This document shows, piece by piece, positions 793 to 26,993 of a stretch of 27,135 bases of DNA. A model generated the notes under the pieces. That model saw only the letters and a program-made list of their open reading frames with translations, was not told where the DNA came from and did no database searches. The translations under genes were made by a program, and so were the position numbers. The DNA lies in IMG/VR virus record IMGVR_UViG_3300035158_000284, positions 1-27,135 of that record; one strand, written 5' to 3'. Source of the stretch: a virus. How positions within the stretch are numbered: the first letter of the stretch is position 1; every line of letters begins with the position of its first letter.

Positions 793-1323
793 TTATTCCG
801 GCTTTTCCACAATACAGATTCTGACCAGGGCAGTACCTTCCCCAATCATGTTGAATTCCTCAGCCGCCGCCCTCGACAAGTCAATGATCCGGCCACGAAT
901 GTATGGACCACGATCATTGATGCGGACCTCGATGCATTCCCCGACATCAGGACCGGCCCGGCCATCTATCCGGCAAACGTCCACGATGGTCCCAAATGGC
1001 AGAGTGCGATGGGCCGCTGTCATCTTGTCGCCCCAATATCTTTCGCCATTCGCTGTCCTGTTCCCGTAATACCCTGGACCGTACCATGAGGCATAGCCCT
1101 CTTCACACTCCTGCTCCACTTCCGGTGGCAGAGTGCTGGGAATCACATCCAATGTCGGTTCAGATTCCGGCTCTGAAGCCACTTCCGATTCCGTGGTTGT
1201 GTCCGACCACTGAACTGTCTCATCAACGACCAGCTCTGCCACCTGCTCTTCAACCTGTGTAGCGCACTGTTCGCACCCCAAGATTGACAGCGCAATTACC
1301 ATCACCAATACCAACTTTTTCAT
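793..1323 (-). CDS. RlpA-like double-psi beta-barrel lipoprotein
   Basis: This is a predicted secreted lipoprotein of 176 residues. Residues 1-17 are a signal peptide with a basic start (MKK), a hydrophobic core and the lipobox ILGC, with Cys17 as the lipidated residue. An acidic, Ser/Thr-rich linker of about 55 residues follows. The C-terminal part is an RlpA-type barrel: ASWYGPGYYGN, then TAAHRTLPFGT, then INDRGPY and IDLSRAAA. In this family the His and Asp of those segments belong to the peptidoglycan-cleft site of septal lytic transglycosylases. GGAGG five bases before the ATG at 1323 fixes the start, and an upstream ATG at 1335 lies before the ribosome site. It overlaps dCMP deaminase by ATGA. 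Its place in a replication operon is odd. A role in envelope modification, superinfection exclusion or lysis is possible but inferred. Confidence 0.88.
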   Translation of the reverse strand: MKKLVLVMVIALSILGCEQCATQVEEQVAELVVDETVQWSDTTTESEVASEPESEPTLDVIPSTLPPEVEQECEEGYASWYGPGYYGNRTANGERYWGDKMTAAHRTLPFGTIVDVCRIDGRAGPDVGECIEVRINDRGPYIRGRIIDLSRAAAEEFNMIGEGTALVRICIVEKPE

Positions 1324-1823
1324 TTTGACCTCCACTCCATGATCCTTTCAATGGTGCCAACAGCACCCCCCTGCTTATTCGACACCCACTGCCAACCACT
1401 TTCCGTGGCAATCCTTGGAGCAAGCCCATCAGGGTATTCACCCGCAAAAATTACCAGGGTCACCCCGGAATTGATGATCATCTTCATACAGATGGAACAC
1501 GGGCTGTGGGTCACGTACATTGTCCCGCCCCGGATAGACACGCCATGCTCTGCGGCCTGAAGTATCGCATTTTGCTCTGCGTGAAGACCTCGGCACAATT
1601 CCGCCCGCTCACCACTGGGCACCTTCATCCGCTCACGAACACACCCCACATCCTTACAGTGAGGTGCCCCGGATGGTGCGCCATTGTATCCGGTGGCAAG
1701 GATTTTTCTGCCATGAGTAATCACAGCGCCTACCTTCCGCCCCGGCCTGGTACACGTTCCCCGGCTTGACGCATCCCTTGCGATGGTCATGAAATACTCA
1801 TCCCAACTGGGTCTGTCTGTCAT
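1320..1823 (-). CDS. dcd: Deoxycytidylate (dCMP) deaminase
   Basis: The enzyme converts dCMP to dUMP, feeding thymidylate synthesis. The zinc-dependent cytidine deaminase core is clear: HAEQNAI at residues 81-87 (zinc-binding His81 and catalytic Glu83) and PCSIC at 108-112 (Cys109 and Cys112). The N-terminal WDEYFMTIA, the CTRPGRKVGAVI segment and the Cys-rich stretch before HAE are typical of dCMP deaminases rather than tRNA or guanine deaminases. The length of 167 residues is normal. I start at the ATG at 1823, preceded by GGGGTG; an upstream ATG at 1868 would add residues foreign to the family. It partners with the ThyX-like and kinase genes at 17-20 kb. The symbol is only indicative, since dcd also names dCTP deaminase. 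Confidence 0.95.
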   Translation of the reverse strand: MTDRPSWDEYFMTIARDASSRGTCTRPGRKVGAVITHGRKILATGYNGAPSGAPHCKDVGCVRERMKVPSGERAELCRGLHAEQNAILQAAEHGVSIRGGTMYVTHSPCSICMKMIINSGVTLVIFAGEYPDGLAPRIATESGWQWVSNKQGGAVGTIERIMEWRSK

Positions 1824-1824
1824 G

Positions 1825-1992
1825 TTACACCCCGAACAAAAGCAGACCGGCTGCGATGGCACATCCAATGCCAGCCGATCTGGTTGATGACTTCAGGACC
1901 ATGATGGACCCCAAGCCCAGAAAATAAAGGCCACCCACCGTCTTGATCCAGTGCGTGCATTCATACAGAACCATCCAGATATCCCAATCCAT
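1825..1992 (-). CDS. Small membrane protein, 55 residues
   Basis: This short frame starts MDWDIWMVLYEC and ends LLLFGV. Two hydrophobic stretches, roughly residues 20-33 (GGLYFLGLGSIMVL) and 40-54 (AGIGCAIAAGLLLFG), are separated by a short polar turn (KSSTRSA), predicting a two-segment membrane hairpin. The ATG is fused to the stop of the preceding membrane-protein gene as TGATG, and the stop lies one base before the dCMP deaminase ATG, so it fills the gap exactly. No family is recognised. The tandem of two tiny membrane proteins resembles holin/antiholin or superinfection-exclusion pairs, but nothing in the sequence proves that. Confidence 0.65.
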   Translation of the reverse strand: MDWDIWMVLYECTHWIKTVGGLYFLGLGSIMVLKSSTRSAGIGCAIAAGLLLFGV

Positions 1993-9799: not shown

Positions 9800-10023
9800 C
9801 ACGCCCTCTTTTCCACGTATATCAAACTGTCCATTGTGCCCTCTTTTACAGTCTTGAGCAAGCCAATGGACTCTTTCAGAACAGCCGTGGTCTGCTCTGC
9901 TACCTTTGCGAGTGGCACGCCGTCCGGCAGCGAACCTCTCATGGTGTAGTTGACAGCCGCAATTATCATCGGCTGAAATTCAACTTCAGGATGAACAGTC
10001 CGAACTGATCCGATCACGGACAA
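9799..10023 (-). CDS. Hypothetical protein between RecA and SbcD-SbcC
   Basis: No family is recognised. Read from a TTG at 10023 it is 74 residues, starting (M)SVIGSVRTVHPEVEFQP and continuing with helices (PMIIAAVNYTM, LAKVAEQTTAVLKESIGLLKTV). GTGGAG directly after the recA stop lies nine bases before this TTG. The frame is open further upstream to an ATG at 10134 with AAGGA before it; that form would be 111 residues and overlap recA by 95 bases, and its extra part looks like out-of-frame recA. The start is therefore uncertain. Its stop is fused to the SbcD-SbcC start (TGATG). Confidence 0.65.
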   Translation of the reverse strand: MSVIGSVRTVHPEVEFQPMIIAAVNYTMRGSLPDGVPLAKVAEQTTAVLKESIGLLKTVKEGTMDSLIYVEKRA

Positions 10024-12946: not shown

Positions 12947-15900
12947 TTAAAAAGCCCGCCCGACTGGGACAACTCCCTGAACTACATATGATTGTGGGTA
13001 TCTATCACTTGTCTGCTTCAACACAGACATGATCACTATATCTCCAGTGGTCAAATGCTTCTGATTAGGCTCATACACATCATTGAAGCAAAGCAACGAA
13101 CCTACTGTGCCGCCCTTTGGACCAGCCAAAGTCAGGAAAGCCATGATGCCATTTCTTGCCTCGTGCTTTTTACAGTCCGTGATGATCCCATAAATGAACT
13201 TTTCACTGTTAAATGCGGCCTTGGCCAGACGTTTACATGGATTGGCAATGACCAATAGCTTCCCCTGCTTCTGCCATTCCTCAAGCATGTCCAGCTTTTC
13301 ACTCTTGGTTAGCTTCCGGCCCCGCCTTGATTCCTCAATGCTGATGGCCTCATATCCCTCTTTCACCATCACCTTGATGGCCGCTTCCCGGTGCGATTCC
13401 AATGGGTCTTGGATAAAATACAATTCAAAAGGATTCAGGGTTGAATATTCCGGCTTTCCTGCCGCCCTGGCTTCATCCATTTTGCGTTCCATTTCGTCCA
13501 AGTCAGCCATGAACTGAACTTGCATTGTTTTCGACTTGGCGAACAACGACACCTTCATGGCCACGCATGTTCCCACGCCCTTTTCTATGATGGGCCTGAA
13601 CTCATCAAATTTATCAATGTCCAGCTTGATCCGCCAGTGGATGTGCGTCTCATCTTGAAGGTTGAAATTGCTGTATCGCTTCCCCCAACCAATCCGGTCC
13701 TTTTCCGCCTGATCCGGCTCTGTGGTGTGAAAGTCACCCACCTGATTGTATCTGAGGTCAATGATCTGGCCCCGGATAAACGCATCACCGCTGTCCCAAT
13801 CCAGGGCATCCAACGGCTGAAACTTGATATGATCCCCGAACTGATCCAACAACTCATGATACAATTCAACCGGATGTTTGTCCACAGGCAACGGGCATAC
13901 ATCTATCGCCATGCGGGTCAACATCTCTGGCGAGTAATCCTCATCACTGGCCGATTGCTCCAGCATACGATCAACCCTGTCATAATCACGTTTATCGCAC
14001 GCCTTGAGGACATCTTCAATTTGTTCCAAAAAGAATTTCACATTTGGAATCAGCCCGACAAACGCCCCGGCCTTGACTAGATTCTCAACAGACCGCTTAT
14101 TGACATATGATTTCCCAACCCGCTTCCTGAAATCAGCAAATGATATGAACTCACCGGCTGCGTCACGTTCCTTGACTATTTTCTCGATGCCTTTGTCTGT
14201 GACCCATTTGATCTTATTCAGAGCAAATATGATCCGGCCATGCTCATCTATCCTGAAGTGCTTGTTGGAGTGATTGATGTGAGGCTTGATGATCTCAACT
14301 CCCAAACGTTCCGCCTCTTGAATAGTCCTGGCAGCCGTTTCCGGGTCAGGCTCATGCTTGAGTAGTGCCCACATAAATTCCACCGGATAATAAACCTTGA
14401 GCCACATCTCCCAATAGGCAATGGCCGCATATGCTACTGCGTGCGACTTGTTAAAACCATACGAACCAAAGAACACAATGGAATCAAACAGCTCACCGGC
14501 CTTTTTATCAGACATGCCGTGCTTGGCTGCCCCCTCCATGAATGTGGTCTTTTCCTTGGTGATAACCTCCACCCCAGCCTTTTTCGCAATATCCTTCCGC
14601 AAGGAATCCGCCGTGGATGGCTCATAACCACCGATCTGTTTGAATATCTGAATAACCTGTTCTTGATACACAATGATTCCATATGTGGCCTTGGTGATTT
14701 CATCGTATATGGGATGTGTCTTGCTCCACGCCTTGCCATTTTTCCGTTCAATGTATTTTGTCGCCAGCCCGGACCTCGATGTGCCCGGCCTGTTCAACGC
14801 ATTCATGGCAGCAACACCTTCAAAGGAATCGAATGTGATGGCCTCAGCCAAGTTGAACATCGATGTGGTATCATACTGGAATATTCCAGCAAACTGTCTG
14901 TCTGTGAAGGATTGGAACACCTTGGGGTCATCCATCGGCATTGCCTCAAGGTCAACAACCTTCCCGTGACGCTCTTTGACCGCTGACAAGCAGTCACCGA
15001 TCACCGACAAATTCCTCAGCCCCAACACATCTAGCTTGAGCAAGCCAAAATCTGTCGTTCCCCAGAAATCAACCGCTGTACATGGCGTCAGACCCTTGTC
15101 TGTTTTCTGAACCTCCATTGGCACGATGGCGGATAGCTTCGATGGGCTGATGACCACACCAGCTGCGTGAACGCCCTTTTGGCGTGCCTGGCCCTCCAAT
15201 GACATAACCAACGGCAATATGTGTGGATAGTCCTTGTTGAACTCCTGGCACACCTTAAATTCCTTGAATGAATCCTCAACGGTTTGGCTGGCCCGCTCAT
15301 CACCAGATGAACGCTCAACAATGCTGCCAGTGACCCCGGCCACCCTATTAGCCGGAATCTGGTGCACCCTCGACACATCCCGCAAACATTGCTTCCCCTT
15401 CAATGTGCCAATGGTCCCGATCAACGATGTATTCTCAGGACCATACTTTTTCATCAGGTAGTCAATGACCTCTTGCCGCCTCACATCTTCAAAATCCATA
15501 TCAATGTCAGGCATGTCAATCCGGCCCGGACTCATGAACCGCTCAAAAAGCAAATCATGCTCAATGGGGTCCACAGATGTTATTCCCAACAGGAAGGAAA
15601 CAAGACACCCCGCCGCTGATCCCCTCCCCGGTCCCACCGTCATTTCCTGCTTCCTGACCCACTTGTACAAGTCATGGACAATCAAGAAATAACGCTCAAA
15701 GTTGCTTCCAAAGATGGTCCTCAATTCCATGGGCAGCCGGTCTGAATAGATTTTCAGTGCAGCTTCATGGCTTATATTTCGCCGTCTGGCCAGCCTCTTT
15801 GCCCGCTCTGGCACGTTCCGCCACTGCCACCCATCCTTACACAGCCGGATCATATATTGCTTTTCCGTCATGCCCGGTGGCACATCAACATCGGGAAGGA

Positions 15901-16858
15901 TACAAGCAAATTTGTCCAGCTTCAAATCCACATTGCACCGTTCAGACAGATCCACGGAATTGGCCATCATCTCGAATTTTTGAGCCTTGGTTATCCATGG
16001 GTGATAATCCCGGACCGCCTGAAGCATTTCCTTGGGGCTGCGGAACCAGAAATCATGCGTGTCAAATCTGAACCTGGACCTGTCTGCGAGCACCTGCTTG
16101 AACTGGAGGCACATCAGCACCTCTTGTTGGTACCAATCATCCGGCCTGAGATAGTGAACATCATTGGTGAGTATCGGTCGGAATCCGAACTGCTTTGCCC
16201 ATTTCAACGTCTGCTTGTTGGCTTCATCCTGCCCTGTAATCTCATTGGGCATGACCTCACCATACACCCGATCTGGGCCAAATATCTCAAGCAAACGATT
16301 CAATTGGCGCACTGCCCTTTTGTATTCCCCACTGAGCAAGAACTTGTTAGCAATCCCGCTCACGCACGCCGTCCCGACCAACACCCCTTCATTGTACTTT
16401 TCAAGCAACTCCCAATCAACACGTGGCCTGTTCCCTTTCAGCCCGGTGTACCAACCTTCCGATGTCATCTGAAACAGATTGCTCAGACCAACTTCATTCA
16501 TGGCCCAAGCGCACAAGTGCCATGTTTCGCTGATCCCCAATTCCGCCTCTTTTTGCTTGGTGAATTCACGCCTCTGCCCGGCTGGTATGTCCTTGGCCTG
16601 TGCTTTGACCTCTTCAGGCAATTCCCGCTTGCGCCGGTCATTGGTCATGTACAACTCACAACCATAAACCGGCTTTATGCCCGCCGCCTTGGCTGCCTTG
16701 TGAAATCTATACACGCCCCGCATTGATCCGTGATCGGTCATGGCCACCCTTTCATGGCCGCACTCTTTGGCACGCTCCATAAGATCGGTGACCCGGCCCA
16801 CGCCGTCTAACAGGCTGAACTCAGTGTGTAGGTGTGCGTGAAAATGAAGTGGTGGCAT
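12947..16858 (-). CDS. dnaE: DNA polymerase III alpha subunit (C family) with PHP domain
   Basis: This replicative polymerase is 1303 residues, longer than the roughly 1160 of E. coli DnaE. The PHP domain comes first, with HLHTEFSLLD near the start; all nine metal-ligand positions of active PHP domains appear filled (His9, His11, Asp18, His43, Glu68, His114, Cys165, Asp233, His235). The polymerase palm shows GPGRGSAAG at 409-417 and PDIDMDFEDVRR at 450-461 with catalytic Asp451 and Asp453; LLKLDVLGLRNL carries the likely third Asp. KGVHAAGVVIS and a C-terminal OB-like region follow. No epsilon-type exonuclease is encoded in the window, so the PHP domain may proofread. The ATG overlaps the preceding stop (TAATG). 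Confidence 0.97.
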   Translation of the reverse strand: MPPLHFHAHLHTEFSLLDGVGRVTDLMERAKECGHERVAMTDHGSMRGVYRFHKAAKAAGIKPVYGCELYMTNDRRKRELPEEVKAQAKDIPAGQRREFTKQKEAELGISETWHLCAWAMNEVGLSNLFQMTSEGWYTGLKGNRPRVDWELLEKYNEGVLVGTACVSGIANKFLLSGEYKRAVRQLNRLLEIFGPDRVYGEVMPNEITGQDEANKQTLKWAKQFGFRPILTNDVHYLRPDDWYQQEVLMCLQFKQVLADRSRFRFDTHDFWFRSPKEMLQAVRDYHPWITKAQKFEMMANSVDLSERCNVDLKLDKFACILPDVDVPPGMTEKQYMIRLCKDGWQWRNVPERAKRLARRRNISHEAALKIYSDRLPMELRTIFGSNFERYFLIVHDLYKWVRKQEMTVGPGRGSAAGCLVSFLLGITSVDPIEHDLLFERFMSPGRIDMPDIDMDFEDVRRQEVIDYLMKKYGPENTSLIGTIGTLKGKQCLRDVSRVHQIPANRVAGVTGSIVERSSGDERASQTVEDSFKEFKVCQEFNKDYPHILPLVMSLEGQARQKGVHAAGVVISPSKLSAIVPMEVQKTDKGLTPCTAVDFWGTTDFGLLKLDVLGLRNLSVIGDCLSAVKERHGKVVDLEAMPMDDPKVFQSFTDRQFAGIFQYDTTSMFNLAEAITFDSFEGVAAMNALNRPGTSRSGLATKYIERKNGKAWSKTHPIYDEITKATYGIIVYQEQVIQIFKQIGGYEPSTADSLRKDIAKKAGVEVITKEKTTFMEGAAKHGMSDKKAGELFDSIVFFGSYGFNKSHAVAYAAIAYWEMWLKVYYPVEFMWALLKHEPDPETAARTIQEAERLGVEIIKPHINHSNKHFRIDEHGRIIFALNKIKWVTDKGIEKIVKERDAAGEFISFADFRKRVGKSYVNKRSVENLVKAGAFVGLIPNVKFFLEQIEDVLKACDKRDYDRVDRMLEQSASDEDYSPEMLTRMAIDVCPLPVDKHPVELYHELLDQFGDHIKFQPLDALDWDSGDAFIRGQIIDLRYNQVGDFHTTEPDQAEKDRIGWGKRYSNFNLQDETHIHWRIKLDIDKFDEFRPIIEKGVGTCVAMKVSLFAKSKTMQVQFMADLDEMERKMDEARAAGKPEYSTLNPFELYFIQDPLESHREAAIKVMVKEGYEAISIEESRRGRKLTKSEKLDMLEEWQKQGKLLVIANPCKRLAKAAFNSEKFIYGIITDCKKHEARNGIMAFLTLAGPKGGTVGSLLCFNDVYEPNQKHLTTGDIVIMSVLKQTSDRYPQSYVVQGVVPVGRAF

Positions 16859-17334
16859 TACATCCTCTCATCTTTGGGCAACCTTGGAAAGTGCTTCAGA
16901 ACGTCCCCGAACTTTTCAGGGCTGTGTCCCATAATTTGAAGCTGTTGCCCGAACTCGCTGATGCCCTTTTTTATCTCACCAGGGCTCATCAGCATATGGT
17001 GTATTTCTGTGTCTTTGAATCCATCATCACCATGCATTTTGATGTGCGCAGCAATGACCTCTTTCAATTCTGCTGGATACTCATTTTCAAGCAACCAGAT
17101 CAAGTAATGAACGCCATCAGCCGTCTTGGCAAGCCTAGACACCAACTGCCCCTTATGCGGCCCGAACTTGAGCCTGGCATCCGGCAAGTTGTCCCCTTGC
17201 GGAAGGATGGCAGAATATTGCGTGTGATGGTCAGATTCAATAGGCGCATCCGGCTCATCGTCCACAACAAGCGCATCTTTTTCTTGGCCGCTTCCCTTTT
17301 GAAGCATTCGCCTGATTTGCTCTTTTGTGCTCAT
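16858..17334 (-). CDS. Small protein with a DUF3820/ExoX-C-like domain and N-terminal IRxxLQ motif
   Basis: This 158-residue protein is of uncertain function. The middle, LKFGPHKGQLV then VHYLIWLLENEY then ELKEVIAAHI, fits the F-G-x-x-K-G ... Y-L-x-W-L pattern of the DUF3820 or exonuclease-X C-terminal module, a small DNA-associated domain. The N-terminus, STKEQIRRMLQKG, matches the N-terminus of the protein at 23763-24431, which has the same module, so the two look like distant paralogs. AGAGG seven bases before the ATG at 17334 and the paralog match support this start, although it places 80 bases inside the kinase gene. It is fused by TAATG to the polymerase. Confidence 0.75.
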   Translation of the reverse strand: MSTKEQIRRMLQKGSGQEKDALVVDDEPDAPIESDHHTQYSAILPQGDNLPDARLKFGPHKGQLVSRLAKTADGVHYLIWLLENEYPAELKEVIAAHIKMHGDDGFKDTEIHHMLMSPGEIKKGISEFGQQLQIMGHSPEKFGDVLKHFPRLPKDERM

Positions 17335-17890
17335 CAACAAACCTCTTGGCGATTTCAAGTGTCACAGTCTCGCCATATCCGCTGGTGTCAATGCTCAGCT
17401 TGGGTATTTCCACCCAATTCCAGACACGATCAAGTTGCGTGGCAACCGTCCACCATTCCTCTTTCCCGGCCAACGGGAATTTTCCATGCAGGCAACGCTC
17501 TTTTGATTCTTTCCTGGTGCACCCCAAGTATATGTAGCCGACCTTGCCGCCACCAACCAAAAGACTTTCCTGCCACAATTCAACCCAATGCTTGAGCCTT
17601 GGATCATCCTCTTGGAAATCGCCGTTCAACACCCCATAAGCAATTCCAGACGGAAGTGATCTGTCCAAAATCACATTTGCCTTGGTAGTGCCCAGTGCTT
17701 CGGCCATGAACATGTCCTCAACATAGGTGTTGACCGGAACTCCAATGGACTGTAGCTTTGCCACCTGCTCCTGGAAGTTGCGCCCTGGCCGCCTGAATGC
17801 TCTCAAGATCGGCCAGGACGTGTACTTGGACAAGGACTTACACAGCGTGGTCTTGCCAGACCCGTTGATGCCCTCAACTACCAGGATCAT
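17255..17890 (-). CDS. Thymidylate-kinase-like P-loop kinase
   Basis: This 211-residue nucleotide kinase has Walker A EGINGSGKTT at 6-15 and DRSLPSGIAYG at 76-86, the DR-x-x-x-S-x-x-A-Y pattern of dTMP kinases and related deoxynucleotide kinases. A Cys-containing middle (LGCTRKESKERC) replaces the usual lid sequence. The final 25 residues are basic with a CACC cluster (KGKRPRKRCACC) and overlap the next gene. GAGG before the ATG supports the start. The simplest role is dTMP to dTDP after ThyX. The family also resembles the P-loop kinases that phosphorylate hydroxymethyluracil in DNA of hypermodified phages, which cannot be excluded. Confidence 0.87.
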   Translation of the reverse strand: MILVVEGINGSGKTTLCKSLSKYTSWPILRAFRRPGRNFQEQVAKLQSIGVPVNTYVEDMFMAEALGTTKANVILDRSLPSGIAYGVLNGDFQEDDPRLKHWVELWQESLLVGGGKVGYIYLGCTRKESKERCLHGKFPLAGKEEWWTVATQLDRVWNWVEIPKLSIDTSGYGETVTLEIAKRFVDEHKRANQANASKGKRPRKRCACCGR

Positions 17891-17893
17891 GAT

Positions 17894-19072
17894 TTATTTC
17901 CTCAAGGCGGATTCCGCCCGGTCCATGGCATCAAAGATCATGGACAGCTCATCCTCTGATATGTTCAAAGGCGGACAGAATCTGATTGGGCCATGCTTGC
18001 GCCAGGTGGCCATGACGACTCCCTGACGGATCATCTCTTCACAGAACTGAAATCCATCATAGGCATCCCAGTCAGGAGTGAATGCCCAATGGATTCCCAT
18101 TCCATCAAACTCGTTGATCCAGCCCTGGTCAACCCGCTCTTTCATTTCCTCACGGATTTGATTGCCCCGGTCCCGGATATCACACATGTGCTCATCCAGA
18201 TACTCCAGGACAAGAGTGTTCATCCAACAGGCAAACGGACTCCCTGCGAATGTGCTGAAGTGGGTGCCAGGGGTGAAGGTCACCGCCACGTGCTCTTTGG
18301 CAAGACACGCCGCCATCGGGAATCCGGCTGCCATCCCCTTCCCCATCGTCATGATGTCCGGCTTGAGCGCATCGCCGCCGATGTTGTGCCAGGCTGTGAA
18401 ATCGCCGGTGCGACCCATGCCGACCTGGATTTCATCGAATATGAGCAGGATGTCATTGTCAGAGCAGAACTTGCGAACCTCCAACAACCACTCCCGGCTG
18501 TAGGTGTGGACCACGTTATTGCCCAGGATGGTGGCCATGCTGAAGGCGCACGTTTCGCCCACCTTGATCTGGTCCAAACTTTCCACCACATAGAATCCTT
18601 CCGGCATCGGGTCATAGCCGATCTTGTGATATGGTGAATCACTGGCATCGCTGGCCGCCATCGCAAACCCGGTCCTGCCGTGAAAATTCCCGGCCAAGGT
18701 GGCAATGCTTCGCTTCCCGGTCCCACGGTCATGATGGTGCTTGCGGGCCAACTTGACCGCCGCCTCATATGATTCCGTCCCGGAATTAGCAAAAAACACC
18801 CTGTCCATCCTGGTGGCCTGGCACAACATGTCTGCGCACTGTGATCTGATGTCATTGGGGTAGATGTCAGCCAACTGGTGCGGCCTCTTTTCCCCAAAGA
18901 ACTTCATGATGGCTCCCAGCAGCAGCCCGGTGTTCCACCCCAGTGAATTGACTCCCTCATCATTCCACATGTCAAACAGCCGTCTGCCATCTGAAGTGGT
19001 GATGTAATGCCCTTCAGCCGCCACCACGGTGAACGGCATGCGATCAACTGTGTTCATCAAACTTTTGCTCAA
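17894..19072 (-). CDS. Class III PLP-dependent aminotransferase
   Basis: A complete fold-type I, class III aminotransferase of about 392 residues, similar to acetylornithine/GABA aminotransferases and glutamate-semialdehyde aminomutases. Visible motifs, numbered from TTG: ANSGTESYEAAVKLAR (about 95-110, phosphate binding), GNFHGRTG, IFDEIQVGMGRTG with the cofactor Asp213, and PDIMTMGKGMAAGFPMAA with Schiff-base Lys245. I start at TTG 19072, because GGGGGAAGG lies at ideal distance; ATG 19057 is an alternative with poor spacing. An open frame further back to 19438 only copies the ThyX gene out of frame. This enzyme is foreign to normal phage dTTP metabolism, and its substrate is unknown. It is four bases from the kinase and 13 from ThyX. 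Confidence 0.93.
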   Translation of the reverse strand: MSKSLMNTVDRMPFTVVAAEGHYITTSDGRRLFDMWNDEGVNSLGWNTGLLLGAIMKFFGEKRPHQLADIYPNDIRSQCADMLCQATRMDRVFFANSGTESYEAAVKLARKHHHDRGTGKRSIATLAGNFHGRTGFAMAASDASDSPYHKIGYDPMPEGFYVVESLDQIKVGETCAFSMATILGNNVVHTYSREWLLEVRKFCSDNDILLIFDEIQVGMGRTGDFTAWHNIGGDALKPDIMTMGKGMAAGFPMAACLAKEHVAVTFTPGTHFSTFAGSPFACWMNTLVLEYLDEHMCDIRDRGNQIREEMKERVDQGWINEFDGMGIHWAFTPDWDAYDGFQFCEEMIRQGVVMATWRKHGPIRFCPPLNISEDELSMIFDAMDRAESALRK

Positions 19073-19085
19073 TTTCCTTCCCCCT

Positions 19086-20039
19086 TTATTTTGCGGCCAG
19101 CCGCTTCCCGGTCCACGGGTCACGCCGCCAATAGTCCTGATATTCACCAATGCGCTGTTTGCCCATCGGGTTGAATCCGCTTTCCACCTCAGCCGGATCA
19201 AGCCCAGCAACCAGGTTGGCATACATCGGGCAGACCGGCAAGGCATCTTCACCAGACACACGCCGCTCATTTTCGTGCTCGTATTTGCACCCCTTGAACT
19301 TGTCGCCGGACAGGCACGGTGGCGTGGCCATCTCTGCGAATATCGGGTGAACCTTGCTGGAGCACTCTTTGACCATCCCCCGGATAACCGGCCCCCACAA
19401 CCCCAACTGGAGTATCCAGCAGGACCGCTTGCCCACAATATGGAGCATGCTGTTGATGTTCATCGTCCAGCTGATCCGGTGCTGCGCTCCCAACGGGATG
19501 AGGTCACGGGCATCCTCCATCGGCACCCCGGCTTCAACCAGCCGGTTGTAGGCTGACTCAATGTCCTTCATGGTGTCGTTGTATAGCTTGTACAACTCAG
19601 GGTTGGTCCAGCCCATTTGACGGATGGTGTTGGCAATACGATACATGCCATTGGTGGCGAATTGGCCCATGTCCTGGATGCGCATCGACTGACTCCACCA
19701 ACTGGAGCTTGTCAGGTCAGGTATCAGGTCAACTCCGATCCGATCATCATGCTTGTGACCGACCCGATGACGGACCGCCTGTTCACGCCAACTGACGCTC
19801 ACACCTTCCATCATGAAGTTGAAATATATGGACTCACTGACCGGAATCTGTTGGGCCACAACTTTCCTGAACAACTCCAACAGGCCATCATCGCCCATCG
19901 GGTCATCCGGGTCACGCTTCCCGGCCTTCACTTCATCCACCGTCAACAGCGGATTTTCCGACTTGCTGGCCCACCATATGATGTACAGTGTTTCCAGCGG
20001 ATCATTGGTGTTGCTCACCAACTTGACTCTTGGTTCCAT
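19086..20039 (-). CDS. thyX: Divergent ThyX-like flavin-dependent thymidylate synthase
   Basis: A 317-residue protein with the ThyX layout: FNFMMEGVSVSWREQAVRHR at 73-92, and later LIPLGAQHRISWTMNINSMLHIVGKR with a helical end. The family converts dUMP to dTMP using FAD, NADPH and methylenetetrahydrofolate. It is unusual: after RHR the expected S-x-N-x-x-S-x-R is replaced by VGHKHDDRIGVDLIPD and then SSSWWSQSMR, an apparent insertion of roughly 16 residues, and the usual N-x-R and Q-x-E substrate segments read NINS and QLGL. A Cys-containing tail extends it beyond typical ThyX size. GGAGG eight bases before the ATG fixes the start at 20039. Fold assignment is good, exact reaction less so. Confidence 0.82.
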   Translation of the reverse strand: MEPRVKLVSNTNDPLETLYIIWWASKSENPLLTVDEVKAGKRDPDDPMGDDGLLELFRKVVAQQIPVSESIYFNFMMEGVSVSWREQAVRHRVGHKHDDRIGVDLIPDLTSSSWWSQSMRIQDMGQFATNGMYRIANTIRQMGWTNPELYKLYNDTMKDIESAYNRLVEAGVPMEDARDLIPLGAQHRISWTMNINSMLHIVGKRSCWILQLGLWGPVIRGMVKECSSKVHPIFAEMATPPCLSGDKFKGCKYEHENERRVSGEDALPVCPMYANLVAGLDPAEVESGFNPMGKQRIGEYQDYWRRDPWTGKRLAAK

Positions 20040-20064
20040 TATTGTAACCTCCACTTGAATATTG

Positions 20065-20961
20065 TCATTCCAGGCCGATGGCTTTGAGCACCTCAGCCCA
20101 GTTCACGACCGGCTTCAGACAATCGTGGTCCGGCAAATCATCTGAAATCGGACTCTTGAAATACAGCACGTTGATCCCGTCCTGTGCCAAATCCAACGCA
20201 TGCTTGGGGTCATCTTCTATGAACCCAACAACCTTGGCAGGGTGTACACTTTCCCAGACCGCCCCGGACTTGTCCTTGGACCACAAGATCATGTCCGGGT
20301 TGATTCCGTGCTTCCCCAACCAATGATAGGTGTCGGTGGCTATTCTGCGCACCCTGTGATATGGCCTGGCCGTTATCACCACCAACTTAAATCCGGCCTG
20401 TTTAATCCTGTTCAGGGCAGCCGGTGCGCCATCAATGATTCCTGTTTCCCTGAACATGCCGTCCTGATAATACTTCATCGCAACCGCTTCCCTTTGGGCT
20501 TGATTCAGTTGCACATATCCCTTCCCGGTCTGGCCTTGACAGAATACGTCAAACTGGGCAAAAAAATCGGCCACCACCCCGTCCAGGTCGGTGACCACGA
20601 CATTGGTTGACTCTTTCAAGTCCATCAACTCCGCATGCCAACGCTTGTCAACCAGATTTGACTTTTCAAAGAATGCCTGTAAAAATTCCTTCCGGGTCAC
20701 CCCGATGGCCTGGGCAATCGCCAACACGTATTTGAACGCATCAACGCACTGATCCACGGCATTTCCTGGCACATCCTGCTCTGCCTTCAACTGGTGAAAT
20801 TTCGGTATCAGATCACGCTTCAACTCTGTGACCTCTTCATACAGCCCCAAAAGTAAATCAGCAAGGACTCTGTGCCGCTCTTCACCTGTCATTGTGCTGG
20901 GATCAATTCCCAGCTTCGCCTGTTGTTCTGCTTGGCGTTCCCAAACGTCATCAAATTCCAT
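20065..20961 (-). CDS. Fusion of all-alpha NTP-pyrophosphatase-like and HAD phosphatase domains
   Basis: This is a 298-residue two-domain protein. Residues about 1-112 are helical, with YEEVTELKRD at 41-50 and AVDQCVDAFKYVLAIAQ at 68-84, resembling the E-E-x-x-E and D-x-x-x-D metal sites of MazG and dimeric dUTPases. From about 118 a HAD phosphatase begins: VVVTDLDGVVADF with nucleophile Asp125 and Asp127, then VVITARPY, LWSKDKSG and GFIEDDPKHALD. The pair could hydrolyse a nucleoside triphosphate to the monophosphate and then dephosphorylate a nucleotide. GGAGG eight bases before the ATG at 20961 sets the start, overlapping the FAD gene by 11 bases. The substrate is unknown; dUTP or a host nucleotide is plausible beside ThyX. 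Confidence 0.87.
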   Translation of the reverse strand: MEFDDVWERQAEQQAKLGIDPSTMTGEERHRVLADLLLGLYEEVTELKRDLIPKFHQLKAEQDVPGNAVDQCVDAFKYVLAIAQAIGVTRKEFLQAFFEKSNLVDKRWHAELMDLKESTNVVVTDLDGVVADFFAQFDVFCQGQTGKGYVQLNQAQREAVAMKYYQDGMFRETGIIDGAPAALNRIKQAGFKLVVITARPYHRVRRIATDTYHWLGKHGINPDMILWSKDKSGAVWESVHPAKVVGFIEDDPKHALDLAQDGINVLYFKSPISDDLPDHDCLKPVVNWAEVLKAIGLE

Positions 20962-21904
20962 CGCACCAACCTCCAACCTTTTCAGCGACAACGTCTGCTG
21001 TTTCTCGTGAATTCCATGAGGCATAACGCCCAATAGGAATCACACAGTCAGGATATTCCGGCCCGGTCCCTGCCTCGATGATGTGGCCCTTTATCCTTCC
21101 CTGTTTACTTATTCCGATTTCACGCCCCAGGACATGACTCACCTCATCCTTGACAATGGATGTAGCATCAAAATCATTAGTCCCAAAAGGCTGTGGAACT
21201 TCAGCGCAAAAGTGCTTGGTGCTCTTGTCATGGCTGATCCTGGACACCATCTTCTGCGCCGGTGTATAGATATAATCCGGCCCGGTCCACGTGGGTGGCT
21301 CTGAATAATCCACTTGATATAATCCGATATGTCCATTGCGCAACTCAGGAAAATCAAGACCGGCCAGCCGTCCAAAGGCTGTGGCGTGGATGGATGTGAA
21401 TAGAACGTCAAAATGGAAATTGTCAAATTTTGTCCTTATGGTGTGCCCTGCCAAGTCAACGCTGTCAACCATAGCAGTACACACATCAATACCAGCAAAT
21501 GCCGCTCTGGTCAAATCTGCTGGCTTTATGACCAAAGACTTTGAGTGATCCTTCCCAGGATCATTCATGCACTTGGCCGTCCACCCTTCCGTTGCCCCCC
21601 TGGTCTTTTCATAATGAAGCCGCTGAATGGTCTCAGCCCGGTCCCGGACCCGGTTCATGAACTCTGGATATGGGTGAATTTTACCCTTCCAGAAAATTCC
21701 GCCTTGGATCTGCTCGAAATCATGACCGATCTTGTAATGCACCACAGCAGCATACAGGTGCCTTGACCAGTGAAGATATTTCAGACCGCCCTTGAAAAAA
21801 TCGCCACTGTCTGGCCCAATGGCAATCACATCATGCCCGAACCTTCTCAAGACCATGGATGCTACCTGGCCGCTGATTCCGGTCCCAATTATTACACACT
21901 TCAT
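20951..21904 (-). CDS. FAD/NAD-binding oxidoreductase of unknown substrate
   Basis: A 317-residue Rossmann-type flavoprotein. The N-terminus MKCVIIGTGISGQVAS has the GxGxxG dinucleotide-binding turn at 7-12, followed by a second strand (HDVIAIGPDS). The C-terminus YPDCVIPIGRYASWNSR then VAEKV resembles the G-R-x-x-x-W closing segment of UDP-galactopyranose mutase, amine oxidase and protoporphyrinogen-oxidase-like enzymes. The middle (HPYPEFMNRVRDRAETIQRL) would carry substrate specificity and is not recognised. GGGGGTGG before the ATG at 21904 fixes the start; an ATG at 21937 falls in the terminator-like hairpin. It leads the nucleotide cluster, so a role in nucleotide or base modification is possible. 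Confidence 0.8.
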   Translation of the reverse strand: MKCVIIGTGISGQVASMVLRRFGHDVIAIGPDSGDFFKGGLKYLHWSRHLYAAVVHYKIGHDFEQIQGGIFWKGKIHPYPEFMNRVRDRAETIQRLHYEKTRGATEGWTAKCMNDPGKDHSKSLVIKPADLTRAAFAGIDVCTAMVDSVDLAGHTIRTKFDNFHFDVLFTSIHATAFGRLAGLDFPELRNGHIGLYQVDYSEPPTWTGPDYIYTPAQKMVSRISHDKSTKHFCAEVPQPFGTNDFDATSIVKDEVSHVLGREIGISKQGRIKGHIIEAGTGPEYPDCVIPIGRYASWNSRETADVVAEKVGGWCDGI

Positions 21905-22005: not shown

Positions 22006-22998
22006 TTATTTTTTGGCCGCCGCTTTTTTCGCCGGTGTCTTTTTCACCGGTGCCTTTTTCGCAGCCGCCTTTTTCGCCGGTGCCTTGTTCTTGGCGTTGT
22101 CGTTGTCGGTGTCATTGGTGGTATCCGCCTTTTTGGCAGCCGCCTTTTTCACCGGTGGCGCAGGTGGCTCAATCACGCTGATGTCGATCTTCCCGGATTT
22201 GACCATGGCGCCAATTTCCTTGGCCAGCTTGGCCTCATCCTTGGTCTCCAGGTCCACGACCGCATGGGTGAACCATCCATCCTTCCATTCTTTCTGGTTC
22301 CACTTCTTGTCAGGCACGCCCGCCACCTGGACATCCATCGTGTCCTTCCTGGTCTTGGGCCTGAACGACACGATGGACCTGTCACGGCCACGTTCCGTCT
22401 TGAAGTACAGGGTGGAATAGCCGGAAGGCAGCAACCTGTCGTGAAGGTACATCTGCCCGGCCTCAGCTTCACCCTTTTCCGGCTTGACCACGGTCCCGTT
22501 GGCCTTGGCGATGATTTCCGCCATGGCGTCAATCCTGGGCATCATGGCTTCAAGACGTTCCTGGCGCACATTCTTTTTGGGTGGCCCAGGCTCTGCTTCA
22601 GCGGCCTCACCGCCCTCATCGGTGGTGCTTTCCGCTTCCCCTTCCGTGGCCTCATCGGTGGTGGTGTCCGCTTCCCCTTCCTGCTCGGTGTCCCCTTCCT
22701 GCTCGGTGTCCCCGGCCTCATCGCCGTCCCCGGCATCCTCGGTGGTGCTTTCCGCTTCAGCGGCCTCACCGCCCTCCAACATGGCTGTGCCGTTCTTCAC
22801 GACCTCATCCACGTCCTGCTCGGCCAGCCAATCGGCCACCTGGGTCTCAGCCAGACCCTGCTCAGCAACCACCGCCGTGATGGACAGGCAACTCTGCCTG
22901 AAGGCACATGCCTTTTCCCCGGTGGAATCGTTGCCATCACACGTGTCGCTGGCCTCATGTAGTCCGGCACACGCCGGCACTGTTTTGTCGTCACTCAT
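22006..22998 (-). CDS. Hypothetical protein with Cys cluster, acidic repeats and histone-H1-like tail
   Basis: This 330-residue, four-part protein is of unknown family. Residues 9-33 hold five to six Cys (CDG spacing to CAFRQSC), a cluster seen in two other proteins here. Residues about 75-140 are an acidic repeat (GDTEQEGDTEQEG, GGEAAEAES). Residues about 145-280 look folded (QMYLHDRLLPSGYSTLYFKTE, DGWFTHAVVDLE). The last 45 residues are Lys/Ala/Pro repeats (KKAAAKKAPVKK) like histone H1 tails. GGAGGTGA four bases before the ATG predicts strong translation. Charge pattern suggests DNA or nucleoid binding. A putative promoter lies just upstream and a terminator-like hairpin just downstream, so it may be its own transcription unit. 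Confidence 0.85.
   Translation of the reverse strand: MSDDKTVPACAGLHEASDTCDGNDSTGEKACAFRQSCLSITAVVAEQGLAETQVADWLAEQDVDEVVKNGTAMLEGGEAAEAESTTEDAGDGDEAGDTEQEGDTEQEGEADTTTDEATEGEAESTTDEGGEAAEAEPGPPKKNVRQERLEAMMPRIDAMAEIIAKANGTVVKPEKGEAEAGQMYLHDRLLPSGYSTLYFKTERGRDRSIVSFRPKTRKDTMDVQVAGVPDKKWNQKEWKDGWFTHAVVDLETKDEAKLAKEIGAMVKSGKIDISVIEPPAPPVKKAAAKKADTTNDTDNDNAKNKAPAKKAAAKKAPVKKTPAKKAAAKK
22010..22165 (-). repeat. Lys/Ala-rich tail repeats
   Basis: Repeated GCCGGTGCCTTTTTCGCAGC-like units (plus strand, about 22010-22095, with another at 22130-22160) encode alternating AAAKKAP and KKTPAKK segments. The unit is similar in style to the KAPVK repeat at the end of the gene at 12155. These are coding low-complexity repeats, not a mobile element. 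Confidence 0.6.
22590..22790 (-). repeat. Acidic low-complexity coding repeats
   Basis: Short direct repeats such as TCCTGCTCGGTGTCCCC occur in tandem on the plus strand near 22675-22712, and larger blocks (GGTGGTGCTTTCCGCTTC with GCGGCCTCACCGCCCTC) occur at about 22600-22640 and 22740-22780. They encode Glu/Asp/Thr/Gly runs of the protein above. Such repeats are prone to copy-number change. Confidence 0.6.
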
Positions 22999-23039: not shown

Positions 23040-23067
23040 ATTGTCCATCTGCCCTCTTATTTGTCAA
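23040..23067 (-). promoter_or_regulatory. Candidate sigma-70-type promoter upstream of the 22006-22998 gene
   Basis: On the minus strand TTGACA (23067-23062, a full match to the -35 box) is followed after 16 bases by GACAAT (23045-23040, four of six matches to the -10 box). It overlaps the last codons of the sigma-factor gene, and transcription would start about 35 bases before the GGAGGTGA ribosome site of the next gene. The -35 bases also encode protein (Ile-Asp-Lys-stop), so the match may be chance. Confidence 0.4.
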
Positions 23068-23743
23068 TGGCTATCACTTCATTGACCACCCCCCTTATTT
23101 TGGCCAAAGAATAATTGACCTGATTTACAGTCAAGGATAAATCGCCCGCTATTTTAACATTGCTATTATCATCAGGGTCAGCAGGGATGAGCTTGGCCAT
23201 AAACACCTGCCCGTCCCGGCCCCGCAGCCTGTACAGCACTCTCAATCGGAGCAATGCCATGATTTTTTCATCTTCGCCCCAATCGTGAATCTGATCAGGT
23301 GTGGGCGACATATCAAGGATATAATCGCACATTGTTGGGTCCAAGTCTTGCAGCCGATTTGAATACACGCTGTTTGCTGTTATCCTTTCGCCCAACCAGT
23401 CCTGCTCGTCATACCTCTGTGAATCTGTGTGCGGCTTGTACACCCAACAACCATCATGAGTGTCAAACCTCCAGACATGAGGAATCCGCTTTTGGGCAAG
23501 CTCACGCCCCAACACACCCTGAAGATGGCGCCAGATGACATTCCCCGTAAATGTGCCAATCTTGGCCTTTTCTTCATCATAATTGTGAAGTGCTGTCCAC
23601 GCTGCAAGCAAACCCTCTTGAACCAGGTCTTCAAACAAGGTGGCACCGTCAAATTGTCGGACGTTCCTGGCATGCCTTTTTGCCTTTTCACGTATCAATC
23701 TGTAATTACTTTCAAACAGCTTGTCTGCTTCATCTTTGCCCAT
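23057..23743 (-). CDS. Phage-encoded sigma-70-like RNA polymerase sigma factor
   Basis: A 228-residue protein with region 2 at about residues 35-80 (LFEDLVQEGLLAAWTALHNYD then GTFTGNVIWRHLQ), which binds core polymerase and the -10 element, and a C-terminal helix-turn-helix at about 200-225 (VKIAGDLSLTVNQVNYSLAKIRG) in the place of region 4. The middle is charged and does not match region 3. GGAGGG seven bases before the ATG at 23743 fixes the start; an in-frame GTG at 23758 overlaps that ribosome site. It would redirect host RNA polymerase to phage middle or late promoters. Its early position behind a strong host-type promoter is consistent with that. Confidence 0.88.
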   Translation of the reverse strand: MGKDEADKLFESNYRLIREKAKRHARNVRQFDGATLFEDLVQEGLLAAWTALHNYDEEKAKIGTFTGNVIWRHLQGVLGRELAQKRIPHVWRFDTHDGCWVYKPHTDSQRYDEQDWLGERITANSVYSNRLQDLDPTMCDYILDMSPTPDQIHDWGEDEKIMALLRLRVLYRLRGRDGQVFMAKLIPADPDDNSNVKIAGDLSLTVNQVNYSLAKIRGVVNEVIAIDK

Positions 23744-23762
23744 TTTCGGACCCTCCACTTGA

Positions 23763-24901: not shown

Positions 24902-26953
24902 TTATGCCGCCATGAGGTATTTGCGAATCATCTTGAACAGCCTGGCAGGCATCTCATCGACGTTGTTGACCACGTCCCAATCAGGGTAAAAATTCCTGAC
25001 GTGATCGGTCTGGATTCCCAGGCCATAAACCTCGATGCCTGCATCAGACACCTGCTTCACAACGTCCTTGGTGGCCTGACACTGCTTGTGGTTGTCCCCG
25101 ATGCTGACGTTGGGCTTGCCATCGCTCAGGACTATGAGAACTTTGCGCTGCTGGGGCTGGGCCGCCAGCCGCTTGGCAGTGTGCATGATCGCTTCTGAAT
25201 CCACGTTGCATCCGGCTGTCTCCATCGCCGCAATCCTGGTCTTGGCAGTGGCGTTGAGCTTTTCCCCGAACCCCTTGTGGACATAGTGGACCACCCCAAC
25301 AAACCTGTTGTAATATTTCATCTGGCCCTGAATCTGCCTTTCACTGAGGCCAACTCCGAACCTTTTGGTGTGATGGCCGCAAACCTCGAAATTGATGCCC
25401 AGGCTGTTGAGTGCTTCTGCGATGGCGACCATGCTGACCTTAGCGTGTCCAATCCTGTTCTCACGACCGCCCATGGACCCGCTCTGGTCCACCAGGATGC
25501 TGACCGCAACATCCAGCTTCTGTCCCGGCTTTACCTGGCTGAACACCCTCTTGTTTCCGGTCTTGGCGCTGTAAAGGGCTGAAGGATCAATCTGGCCCTG
25601 CTCCTGGTCGCCAATCCTCACCGACTGAGCTTTGATCCTGAGTAGGGTGCTGAGCTTGCTCTTGAGTGCTCCGACCGCCTTGCCCGCATCCTGTTTCATC
25701 CGGGCATATCCTTCCAGATAGGTGTCTTCAGGGCTGGTGTGGGTCTGCTTGTCCCAAACGTCATTTTCCATCGCCATCGGATGCGGTATGTGGTCCTGGC
25801 TGCGACCCGCCATGTTGATGGCCTTGTCGCTCATTTCCTGTTTGATCCGGTCCATCAGGTCGGTTTCAGTCTGCTTGGGCTGCTCTTTTTCCACCCGCTC
25901 CAAAATGTCCTTGGCATCCTGAGTGGCCTGGGGCAGACCGTCTGTGGTTCCGTTGTTGTCGCCATCATCGCTGTCCGCTTCCCCGTCCTGGTCGCTGTCC
26001 TGGCCCTGGCCCTGACCGCTCTGGGCTTGGTTGCTGTCCGCTTCCCCGTCCTGCTCCTGGTCGCTGTCCTGCTCTTCACCGGCATCCCCGTCCACGCTGT
26101 CCTGACCCGCTTCCCCGTCCTGCTCCTGGTCGCTGTCCTGGTCGCTGTCCTGGCCCGCTTCCCCGTCCTGCTCCTGCTCTTCATCGCCCTCATCACCGGC
26201 CTGTCCGCTTCCGTCCTGCTCCTGCTCTTCATCGCCCTCATCACCGGCCTGGCCCTGCTCATCCTGCTCAGTGTTGCCCTGCTCTTTGTCGCCCTGCTCC
26301 TGGTCGCCATCGCCCTGGTTCTGTCCCAGCTCATCCTTCATGTTGCCTAACCGGGTGATGATCTTGCGGGTCAACTCATCAACCTCTGCCGGTGTCTCTG
26401 TGCGGTTAACTTGGCTGATTTCCGCCTGAAGACCGTCCAGGATGATGTTGTATGATTCCGGCATCCAGCTGGTGTCGATTCTGACCGCCCGGAAGGAAAT
26501 GCCGATGGTGATGATGTAGTTGGGGTTGACCTTATCTATGTTGGCGGCCATTTCCCGGATCAAATCGCCAACCAGCTTCTTGTTCATGGCCTGAAGGTTG
26601 GTGGCCACACCCGGATAACGTGCGCTGAGGCCACGCTCAATTCTGTTGTCCTCAAGTGCGTTGAAAACCGCTTTGTATTTTGCGGTCTGACCGTCTATGA
26701 ACTGAAGTGGAGTGGTCTGTCCCTTGGCCTTGTAAATCTCCTCTTGCTCGACATGGCCCCACTCGTGATCCAACAGACCTTCCATGACCGCCTGATCCTC
26801 ACCTTTGAACTTGTCTGCGTTGGCCGGAAGGTAAATGGTGTTGCCGTCAGTGGTGCAATTGAGCGTCTTGGTGTTGACGTGCACCGTGGCCCTCTTGCTG
26901 AACACCCTGGCGATTTTTTCCCATTTGGTTTCCATGGTCCTGGTCTGTTTCAT
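24902..26953 (-). CDS. CobT-like zincin plus von Willebrand A domain protein
   Basis: A 683-residue protein resembling the CobT-like/DUF2201-type proteins seen in phages. The N-terminal part contains DHEWGH (His63, Glu64, His67) and NALEDNRIE (Glu101), the H-E-x-x-H plus E pattern of zinc metallopeptidases. Residues about 205-340 are Asp/Glu/Gln repeats. The C-terminal VWA domain has the MIDAS motif DQSGSMGG near 487-494, then VLIVLSDGKPN. Related VWA proteins work with MoxR/CobS AAA+ ATPases as remodelling machines; no such ATPase lies in this window, but the upstream side is cut off. GGGGG eight bases before the ATG at 26953 sets the start; an ATG at 26986 coincides with the predicted transcript start. 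It is the first gene after the strong promoter. Confidence 0.88.
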   Translation of the reverse strand: MKQTRTMETKWEKIARVFSKRATVHVNTKTLNCTTDGNTIYLPANADKFKGEDQAVMEGLLDHEWGHVEQEEIYKAKGQTTPLQFIDGQTAKYKAVFNALEDNRIERGLSARYPGVATNLQAMNKKLVGDLIREMAANIDKVNPNYIITIGISFRAVRIDTSWMPESYNIILDGLQAEISQVNRTETPAEVDELTRKIITRLGNMKDELGQNQGDGDQEQGDKEQGNTEQDEQGQAGDEGDEEQEQDGSGQAGDEGDEEQEQDGEAGQDSDQDSDQEQDGEAGQDSVDGDAGEEQDSDQEQDGEADSNQAQSGQGQGQDSDQDGEADSDDGDNNGTTDGLPQATQDAKDILERVEKEQPKQTETDLMDRIKQEMSDKAINMAGRSQDHIPHPMAMENDVWDKQTHTSPEDTYLEGYARMKQDAGKAVGALKSKLSTLLRIKAQSVRIGDQEQGQIDPSALYSAKTGNKRVFSQVKPGQKLDVAVSILVDQSGSMGGRENRIGHAKVSMVAIAEALNSLGINFEVCGHHTKRFGVGLSERQIQGQMKYYNRFVGVVHYVHKGFGEKLNATAKTRIAAMETAGCNVDSEAIMHTAKRLAAQPQQRKVLIVLSDGKPNVSIGDNHKQCQATKDVVKQVSDAGIEVYGLGIQTDHVRNFYPDWDVVNNVDEMPARLFKMIRKYLMAA
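25950..26335 (-). repeat. Degenerate tandem repeats encoding a D/E/Q-rich linker
   Basis: The plus strand shows many short direct repeats such as TGGTCGCTGTCC, CCGTCCTGCTCCTG and TCATCGCCCTCATCACCGGC (the last twice, near 26187 and 26232). They encode Gln-Asp-Ser-Asp, Glu-Gln-Asp-Gly and Gly-Asp-Glu-Gly-Asp-Glu-Glu units that link the zincin and VWA domains. The repeats keep frame, have no regular spacers and are not a CRISPR. Confidence 0.75.
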
Positions 26954-26993
26954 TTTCGCTGCCCCCTTTGTGTTTTTCTCGATCATGTACTAC

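Follow-up and report, generated by a model that had tools for sequence, protein, structure and literature searches.

RESULTS

Five adjacent genes beside a phage DNA polymerase III gene

The window analyzed here is the entire IMG/VR virus record IMGVR_UViG_3300035158_000284 (27,135 bases), in which five consecutive minus-strand genes, near-touching or overlapping, span positions 17255-21904. An earlier note, made from the letters of the window, had read them as a nucleotide or DNA-base modification module built around a divergent ThyX; the five genes are real, their identities are borne out by profiles, and they recur together in 10 other contigs. In the order of transcription, they encode a flavoprotein, a fusion of a nucleoside triphosphate (NTP) pyrophosphatase and a HAD domain, a ThyX-like enzyme, a class III aminotransferase, and a P-loop kinase resembling deoxythymidine monophosphate (dTMP) kinases. 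The junctions within the block measure -8, +25, +13, and +3 nucleotides, and purine-rich sequences resembling ribosome-binding sites precede most of the starts. On the 3′ side of the kinase lies a small gene, which the end of the kinase gene overlaps, followed by the gene for DNA polymerase III alpha (polIII). The features, with what each assignment rests on, are as follows.

20951..21904, minus strand: flavin adenine dinucleotide (FAD) flavoprotein, amine-oxidase/GR2-like, 317 amino acids (motifs, family profile matches, hhalign)
20065..20958, minus strand: fusion of an all-alpha NTP-pyrophosphatase-like domain and a HAD/NT5C-like 5′-deoxyribonucleotidase (motifs, profiles)
19086..20039, minus strand: ThyX-like enzyme (PF02511) of a divergent subfamily (profile, alignment, tree)
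19686..19772, minus strand: RHR and lengthened loop of ThyX, RHR-x25-S instead of RHR-x7-S (alignment)
19452..19454, minus strand: Asn196 codon of ThyX, at the position of the catalytic Arg174 of Thermotoga maritima ThyX (alignment)
17894..19072, minus strand: class III (ArgD-like) pyridoxal phosphate (PLP) aminotransferase (profile, structure match, alignment)
17255..17890, minus strand: P-loop nucleoside monophosphate kinase, dTMP-kinase/deoxynucleoside-kinase-like (profiles, motifs)
16858..17358, minus strand: small protein, function not assigned, between kinase and polymerase; kept in part of the lineage
12947..16858, minus strand: DNA polymerase III alpha (DnaE), downstream of the five genes (profile; same place in 11 of 11 contigs)
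1320..1868, minus strand: deoxycytidine monophosphate (dCMP) deaminase, present in 6 of 11 contigs

The five genes are kept together in a phage lineage

Sequence scans first gave two relatives of 82 kb (G001) and 83 kb (G002), both with the five-gene order of the window, and a scan with the aminotransferase alignment added eight distinct contigs (L037, L038, L039, L040, L041/L042, L043, L044, and L045-L048). Profile searches found all five genes in each of these 10 IMG/VR phage contigs, or 11 with the window, within a few kb of each other and adjoining polIII every time. This co-occurrence exceeds chance and agrees with the earlier view of the genes as one module. At least four internal orders were found (flavoprotein-fusion-ThyX-aminotransferase-kinase, flavoprotein-fusion-aminotransferase-kinase-ThyX, flavoprotein-fusion-aminotransferase-ThyX-kinase, and, in L037, flavoprotein-fusion-aminotransferase-kinase-second aminotransferase-ThyX), and because the order shuffles while no member is ever missing, the five proteins appear to work together. 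The second aminotransferase of L037 (11543-12817), between kinase and ThyX, is a divergent copy of the module enzyme.

ThyX is the most conserved member of the module, with 46-64% identity to distant members versus 22-39% for the other four proteins; between the window and G002, identity is 64% for ThyX, 45% for polIII, and 43% for RecA. Each of the 11 contigs has one Thy1 gene. Neither the flavoprotein nor the kinase had a match by tblastn against 50,697 phage records, and the aminotransferase found, among the matches listed, mostly ordinary bacterial-type enzymes. No cellular relatives of the module were found in genome-contig scans using narrow patterns.

A ThyX-like enzyme without two catalytic residues

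The Thy1 domain (PF02511) is present in all 11 contigs and is matched by the window protein with an E value of 1e-19 (71 bits; cut-off, 24.8); that protein scores below the TIGR02170 equivalog cut-off (53.3 against 87.9 bits). We aligned the 11 lineage proteins with fragments of the T. maritima and Mycobacterium tuberculosis enzymes and with 15 other phage ThyX. As in canonical ThyX, RHR and the equivalents of Ser88 and Arg90 are retained, whereas Arg174 and Tyr91 are not, the signature spacing is broken, and a C-terminal extension is present. The Arg174 position holds Asn, Gly, Ser, or Gln in all 11 lineage proteins (Asn196 in the window) and Arg in all 17 sequences outside the clade; the Tyr91 position holds Ile or Leu in 11 of 11; and RHR-x7-S is stretched to RHR-x25-31-S throughout. 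Arg174 activates deoxyuridine monophosphate (dUMP) by deprotonating N3, and Ser88 and Tyr91 assist methylene transfer (PMC8316439). Since both Arg174 and Tyr91 are lost and the substrate loop is rebuilt in an otherwise highly conserved protein, the alignment suggests that the reaction is changed, and the divergence that the earlier note saw in one gene holds for the whole lineage. In a maximum-likelihood tree, the 11 proteins form one group, a clade of their own on a long stem.

Four cysteines are invariant in the lineage, one after the last catalytic-domain Arg (Cys207) and three in the C-terminal extension (Cys242, Cys251, and Cys270), and their conservation marks a site that may bind a metal or an iron-sulfur cluster. 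Across the phage ThyX compared, they come and go almost as a unit, with counterparts in most actinophage ThyX and none in Krampusvirus ThyX or, mostly, in that of Listeria phage LIS04. As the ThyX of phage SRB7757, which is of the RHR type, has a similar set, we rejected them as a new iron-sulfur feature and as evidence of new chemistry.

The aminotransferase, flavoprotein, fusion, and kinase

The aminotransferase (Aminotran_3, PF00202; E = 7e-66) is ArgD-like over its full length, and its best structure match is 2eh6 (E = 9e-84), an ArgD acetylornithine/succinylornithine aminotransferase with which it shares the class III fold. The PLP lysine (Lys240), Asp208, and Thr269 are invariant in 12 aligned rows, and Arg128 is retained. 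Unlike ArgD, the module enzymes lack the E..QGE glutamate switch, replaced mostly by (A/S/T)P..G(N/H)(N/H), and carry an additional invariant Arg353; the window enzyme falls far below the argD cut-off (251 versus 410 bits). From the sequence we infer that the substrate has changed. The best start is a TTG at 19072, after the strongly ribosome-binding-like GGGGGAAGGAAA, with an alternative ATG at 19057.

For the window flavoprotein alone, profile searches recognized only the Rossmann motif, and other members of the family (n = 11) match Amino_oxidase (best E = 8e-10), DAO, and Thi4. All 11 sequences share an N-terminal GxGxxG, an invariant GGL, KTR...MN, Y.YxP, and GR(F/Y)xxW.

In the fusion, which matches the NT5C profile (E = 2e-7), the pyrophosphatase domain keeps its metal-binding residues (EExxE-like...D..K), and so does the HAD/NT5C-like domain, which has the DxD, T/S, K, and E(D) motifs in 11 of 11 contigs or nearly so. 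The kinase matches Thymidylate_kin (E = 1.5e-5) and PHROG 761, "thymidylate kinase" (E = 8e-17), with a GxNGxGK P-loop and an LDRSxxSxxAY motif of the dTMP-kinase DR(Y/S)xxSxxAY type, and it scores below the TIGR00041 equivalog cut-off (28.4 against 83.25 bits).

A related region in actinophages

The flavoprotein family aligned by hhalign with nine actinophage "oxidoreductases" (E = 1.7e-12 over 248 columns, and also 4e-10 over 148 columns) and is distantly homologous to this actinophage family, known from 120 actinophage records. In the nine actinophages examined, which come from at least seven groups, a ThyX-like gene and DnaE are both found no more than about 10 kb from the oxidoreductase, and in six of the nine an annotated nucleotidase or phosphatase is near it, usually adjacent. 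The regions come from the following records.

MT498053 (L022), MN234207 (L023), FJ168661 (L024), MH271313 (L027), PP978814 (L028)
MN497954 (L029), OK040788 (L030), KJ194582 (L031), ON108643 (L032)
Phages with the region: mycobacteriophages Gumball, Hawkeye, and Leopard; Gordonia phages Ranch and Suzy; Microbacterium phages Krampusvirus, Ajin, and Cybele; Streptomyces phage PHTowN

The actinophage nucleotidases are related to that of the module (E = 3e-18 to 1e-11), so that a homologous nucleotidase, a distantly homologous flavoprotein, a nearby ThyX-like protein, and an adjoining DnaE-type polymerase are shared. The actinophage stretches examined differ in having no annotated aminotransferase or kinase, with an SDR, a methyltransferase or, in one, a glycosyltransferase instead. 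Their ThyX proteins also differ, keeping Arg174 and the RHR-x7-S type of spacing, having Gln, Ser, or Thr at the His of RHR, and falling in other clades. Two very different phage groups thus share the flavoprotein, nucleotidase, ThyX, and DnaE. No other independent evidence speaks as strongly for a nucleotide-linked pathway, and a base-modification core in culturable phages is possible.

Known hypermodification systems

The thymidine hypermodifications of phages M6 and PaMx11 are reportedly 5-NedU and 5-NmdU, and work on M6 and ViI is said to show that amine-bearing thymidine hypermodification begins with ThyA-type hydroxymethylases and is completed on DNA by enzymes of the amino-acid:DNA transferase (ADDT) type. 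Neither a ThyA-like hydroxymethylase (PF00303) nor ADDT (PF18724) was found in any of the 11 contigs, which may be incomplete; positive controls were detected for both, those for ADDT being M6 and PaMx11. The earlier note had already seen no such transferase in the window, and kinship of the module with the ViI, M6, and PaMx11 route is not supported. When PaMx11 gp45-gp62 were compared by BLAST and by profile, no counterparts of the hypermodification enzymes emerged; a match was seen between the dCMP deaminase of PaMx11 and the window gene at 1320-1868. The analogy of kinase and flavoprotein failed as well, for the module kinase is dTMP-kinase-like and unlike PaMx11 gp50, which from its locus we take to be the 5-hydroxymethyldeoxyuridine (hmdU) DNA kinase (hhalign probability, 0.1), and the flavoprotein aligns with gp47 over only 29-36 N-terminal Rossmann residues. 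What the module has in common with M6 (whose type of hypermodification is restated in PMC11946847) and PaMx11 is a probably amine-bearing pyrimidine and the enzyme classes kinase, flavoprotein, and PLP enzyme; it differs in coming from other protein families, in lacking ADDT and a ThyA-type synthase, and in being, by inference, pre-replicative.

In the Bacillus phage SP-15, a hypermodified uracil (dihydroxypentyluracil) takes the place of part of the thymine, and one Thy1 protein has been put forward as the enzyme that makes hydroxymethyl-dUMP (PMC5977210). The likeness lies in Thy1 proteins proposed for hypermodification; SP-15 differs in having a pair of Thy1 genes as well as a sugar/teichoic-acid-type cluster, and no aminotransferase is reported. 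LIS04, whose ThyX stands at the corresponding genome position in an SP-15-like genome, is the only phage record whose ThyX match covers most of the window protein, and its long-branched ThyX shares a branch with the lineage clade (support, 100/99). Direct kinship between the window ThyX and SP-15 gp130 was rejected, as gp130 is not detectably close, and for the same reason the LIS04/SP-15 link is suggestive only.

Other genes in the window and its relatives

The small protein at 2427-2849, labeled Nmad1-like before, gives no above-cut-off match to Nmad1 or any other Pfam family, either by itself or together with its two orthologues; its only match is PHROG 6802, a family of unknown function, and it has an invariant CLPLLDTKGHDYT motif and is kept in G001 and G002. 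Upstream of the module lie a sigma-70 region 2 protein (23057-23758) and a protein with a Lys/Ala-rich, histone-H1/HC2-like tail (22006-22998), to which most members of the lineage have a weakly similar protein. A protein of 1,020 amino acids (6740-9802) fuses an SbcD-like phosphoesterase and an SbcC-like ATPase, and its G002 counterpart is two genes (44827-46755 and 46713-47789). A CobT-like VWA protein (CobT_C, E = 1e-20) is encoded at 24902-26986 and in G001 at 32892-34148; a CbbQ/CobS-like AAA ATPase lies near the CobT-like gene in the related genome, and the MoxR/VWA-type pair is kept in the lineage. G002 also encodes a phosphoribosyltransferase-like protein (33280-33918) and a protein 35% identical to the SP-15 uracil-DNA glycosylase (42006-42620), both of which might bear on uracil handling.

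DISCUSSION

We consider it reasonably probable that the five genes form a pre-replicative, nucleotide-level pathway making a non-canonical C5-substituted deoxypyrimidine that is fed to the adjacent phage polIII. This reading follows from the presence of all five genes beside polIII in 11 of 11 contigs, with constant membership and variable order; from the loss of Arg174 and Tyr91 in ThyX, the most conserved protein of the module; from the single Thy1 gene per contig where no ThyA or hydroxymethylase is found; from an aminotransferase that keeps its PLP residues yet has lost the canonical E..QGE; from the dCMP deaminase in 6 of the 11 contigs; from the homologous flavoprotein near ThyX and DnaE in nine actinophages; and from the grouping of LIS04 ThyX with the clade, given the role proposed for SP-15 Thy1 (PMC5977210). 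The product is probably amine-bearing. The proposal of the earlier note is upheld in outline: the module, the divergent ThyX, and an amine-related nucleotide or DNA-base modification as the best fit stand, and the ViI/M6 analogy and the Nmad1 gene do not.

More tentatively, we propose that the ThyX-derived enzyme, the amine-oxidase-like flavoprotein, and the ArgD-derived aminotransferase build an amine-bearing C5-substituted deoxyuridylate before replication, the equally tentative product of that route being 5-aminomethyl-dUMP or a deoxyuridylate with a new, longer side chain. The dCMP deaminase, where present, would likely supply dUMP. The ThyX-like enzyme would then add a carbon at C5 through a flavin-N5-bound methylene, not acting as an ordinary dTMP synthase, and could plausibly release a trapped 5-hydroxymethyl-dUMP or an aldehyde-derived longer substituent. 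The flavoprotein would oxidize the substituent or an amine donor, and the aminotransferase, whose family turns terminal aldehydes into amines and back, would install or exchange the amino group, for example by converting 5-formyl-dUMP to 5-aminomethyl-dUMP. The dTMP-kinase-like enzyme would phosphorylate the modified deoxynucleoside monophosphate, the fusion would clear competing dTTP, dUTP, and dTMP, and DnaE would incorporate the modified nucleotide. Phages that replace thymine offer a model for such removal of competing dTTP or dTMP, and we assign this part to the fusion by analogy with them. One concrete candidate product is 5-aminomethyl-deoxyuridine, reached via hydroxymethyl and formyl intermediates; other possibilities are a longer chain derived from an aldehyde and a product based on cytosine.

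Several points weigh against this pathway. The case is built on sequence (gene identities, constant co-occurrence, the loss of ThyX catalytic residues, and the absence of known hypermodification enzymes), and the substrates, products, step order, and entry of the product into DNA are proposed from it. Because the 11 contigs are members of a single lineage whose polIII genes are homologous, shared ancestry explains some of the co-occurrence. A ThyX that has lost Arg174 and Tyr91 could also carry out an altered yet ordinary dTMP synthesis. The profiles searched predict no substrate for the aminotransferase or the flavoprotein; AlphaFold models of ThyX and the flavoprotein from three-row alignments reached a pLDDT of only 36-38 and were set aside; and the literature searched ties no actinophage DNA modification to a related cassette.

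Among the alternatives, ordinary boosting of dTTP survives best, although we think it unlikely. In that case, ThyX, the kinase, and the pyrophosphatase would supply dTMP and dTTP, and the aminotransferase and flavoprotein would serve a separate amino-acid or polyamine metabolism as neighbors by descent. Phages do commonly carry ThyX, dCMP deaminase, pyrophosphatase, and kinase genes, the kinase matches dTMP-kinase profiles, and the aminotransferase is closest to acetylornithine aminotransferase (AcOAT)/ArgD. However, this fits poorly with the changes in ThyX across all 11 contigs, with an aminotransferase and a flavoprotein that are never missing while the block order shuffles, with the loss of the glutamate switch of ornithine aminotransferase (OAT) and AcOAT, and with a nucleotidase that would work against dTMP supply.

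Less likely again is a cytosine target, in which the ThyX-like enzyme would alkylate dCMP to give a C5-modified deoxycytidine, the loss of the Arg that contacts and deprotonates uracil N3 having switched the base. Replacement of that Arg in every member is what such a switch would predict, given its role on dUMP N3 (PMC8316439), but none of the residues points positively to cytosine, and the module has a dTMP-kinase-like kinase and a nucleotidase of the pyrimidine NT5C type. The frequent dCMP deaminase also speaks against it, although T4-type phages carry one too.

It is improbable that the module makes a free modified nucleotide that stays outside DNA and serves counter-defense, signaling, or inhibition. 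Such a product would fit the chemistry, and the module includes both a nucleotide pyrophosphatase and a phosphatase, but the replicative polymerase and replication genes adjoin the block in 11 of 11 contigs, and the actinophages show the same proximity of ThyX and DnaE. Even less probable is that hmdU is hypermodified in the DNA after replication, in the manner of ViI, M6, and PaMx11, with transferase enzymes that went unrecognized; the enzyme classes overlap, but neither ThyA-like hydroxymethylase nor ADDT was found, the kinase is of the nucleoside monophosphate type, and the flavoprotein is not gp47-like. Synthesis of cell-surface sugars, which the earlier note had named as a pathway that would overturn its proposal, is rejected because the aminotransferase is ArgD-like and its neighbors are nucleotide enzymes.

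If the proposed nucleotide-level pathway is right, it would be a route to hypermodified pyrimidines not previously described, used by a whole uncultivated phage lineage and with a related core in many actinophages; we found no such cassette in the literature searched, and this novelty is provisional as many subscription papers and preprints lay outside the search. The five enzymes would have testable new substrates, and because culturable actinophages carry the partly homologous flavoprotein-nucleotidase pair close to ThyX and DnaE, the idea could be examined by LC-MS on existing isolates. Phages would then have evolved amine-bearing bases by a separate nucleotide-level route, through a remodeled ThyX, a flavin oxidase, and a class III aminotransferase.

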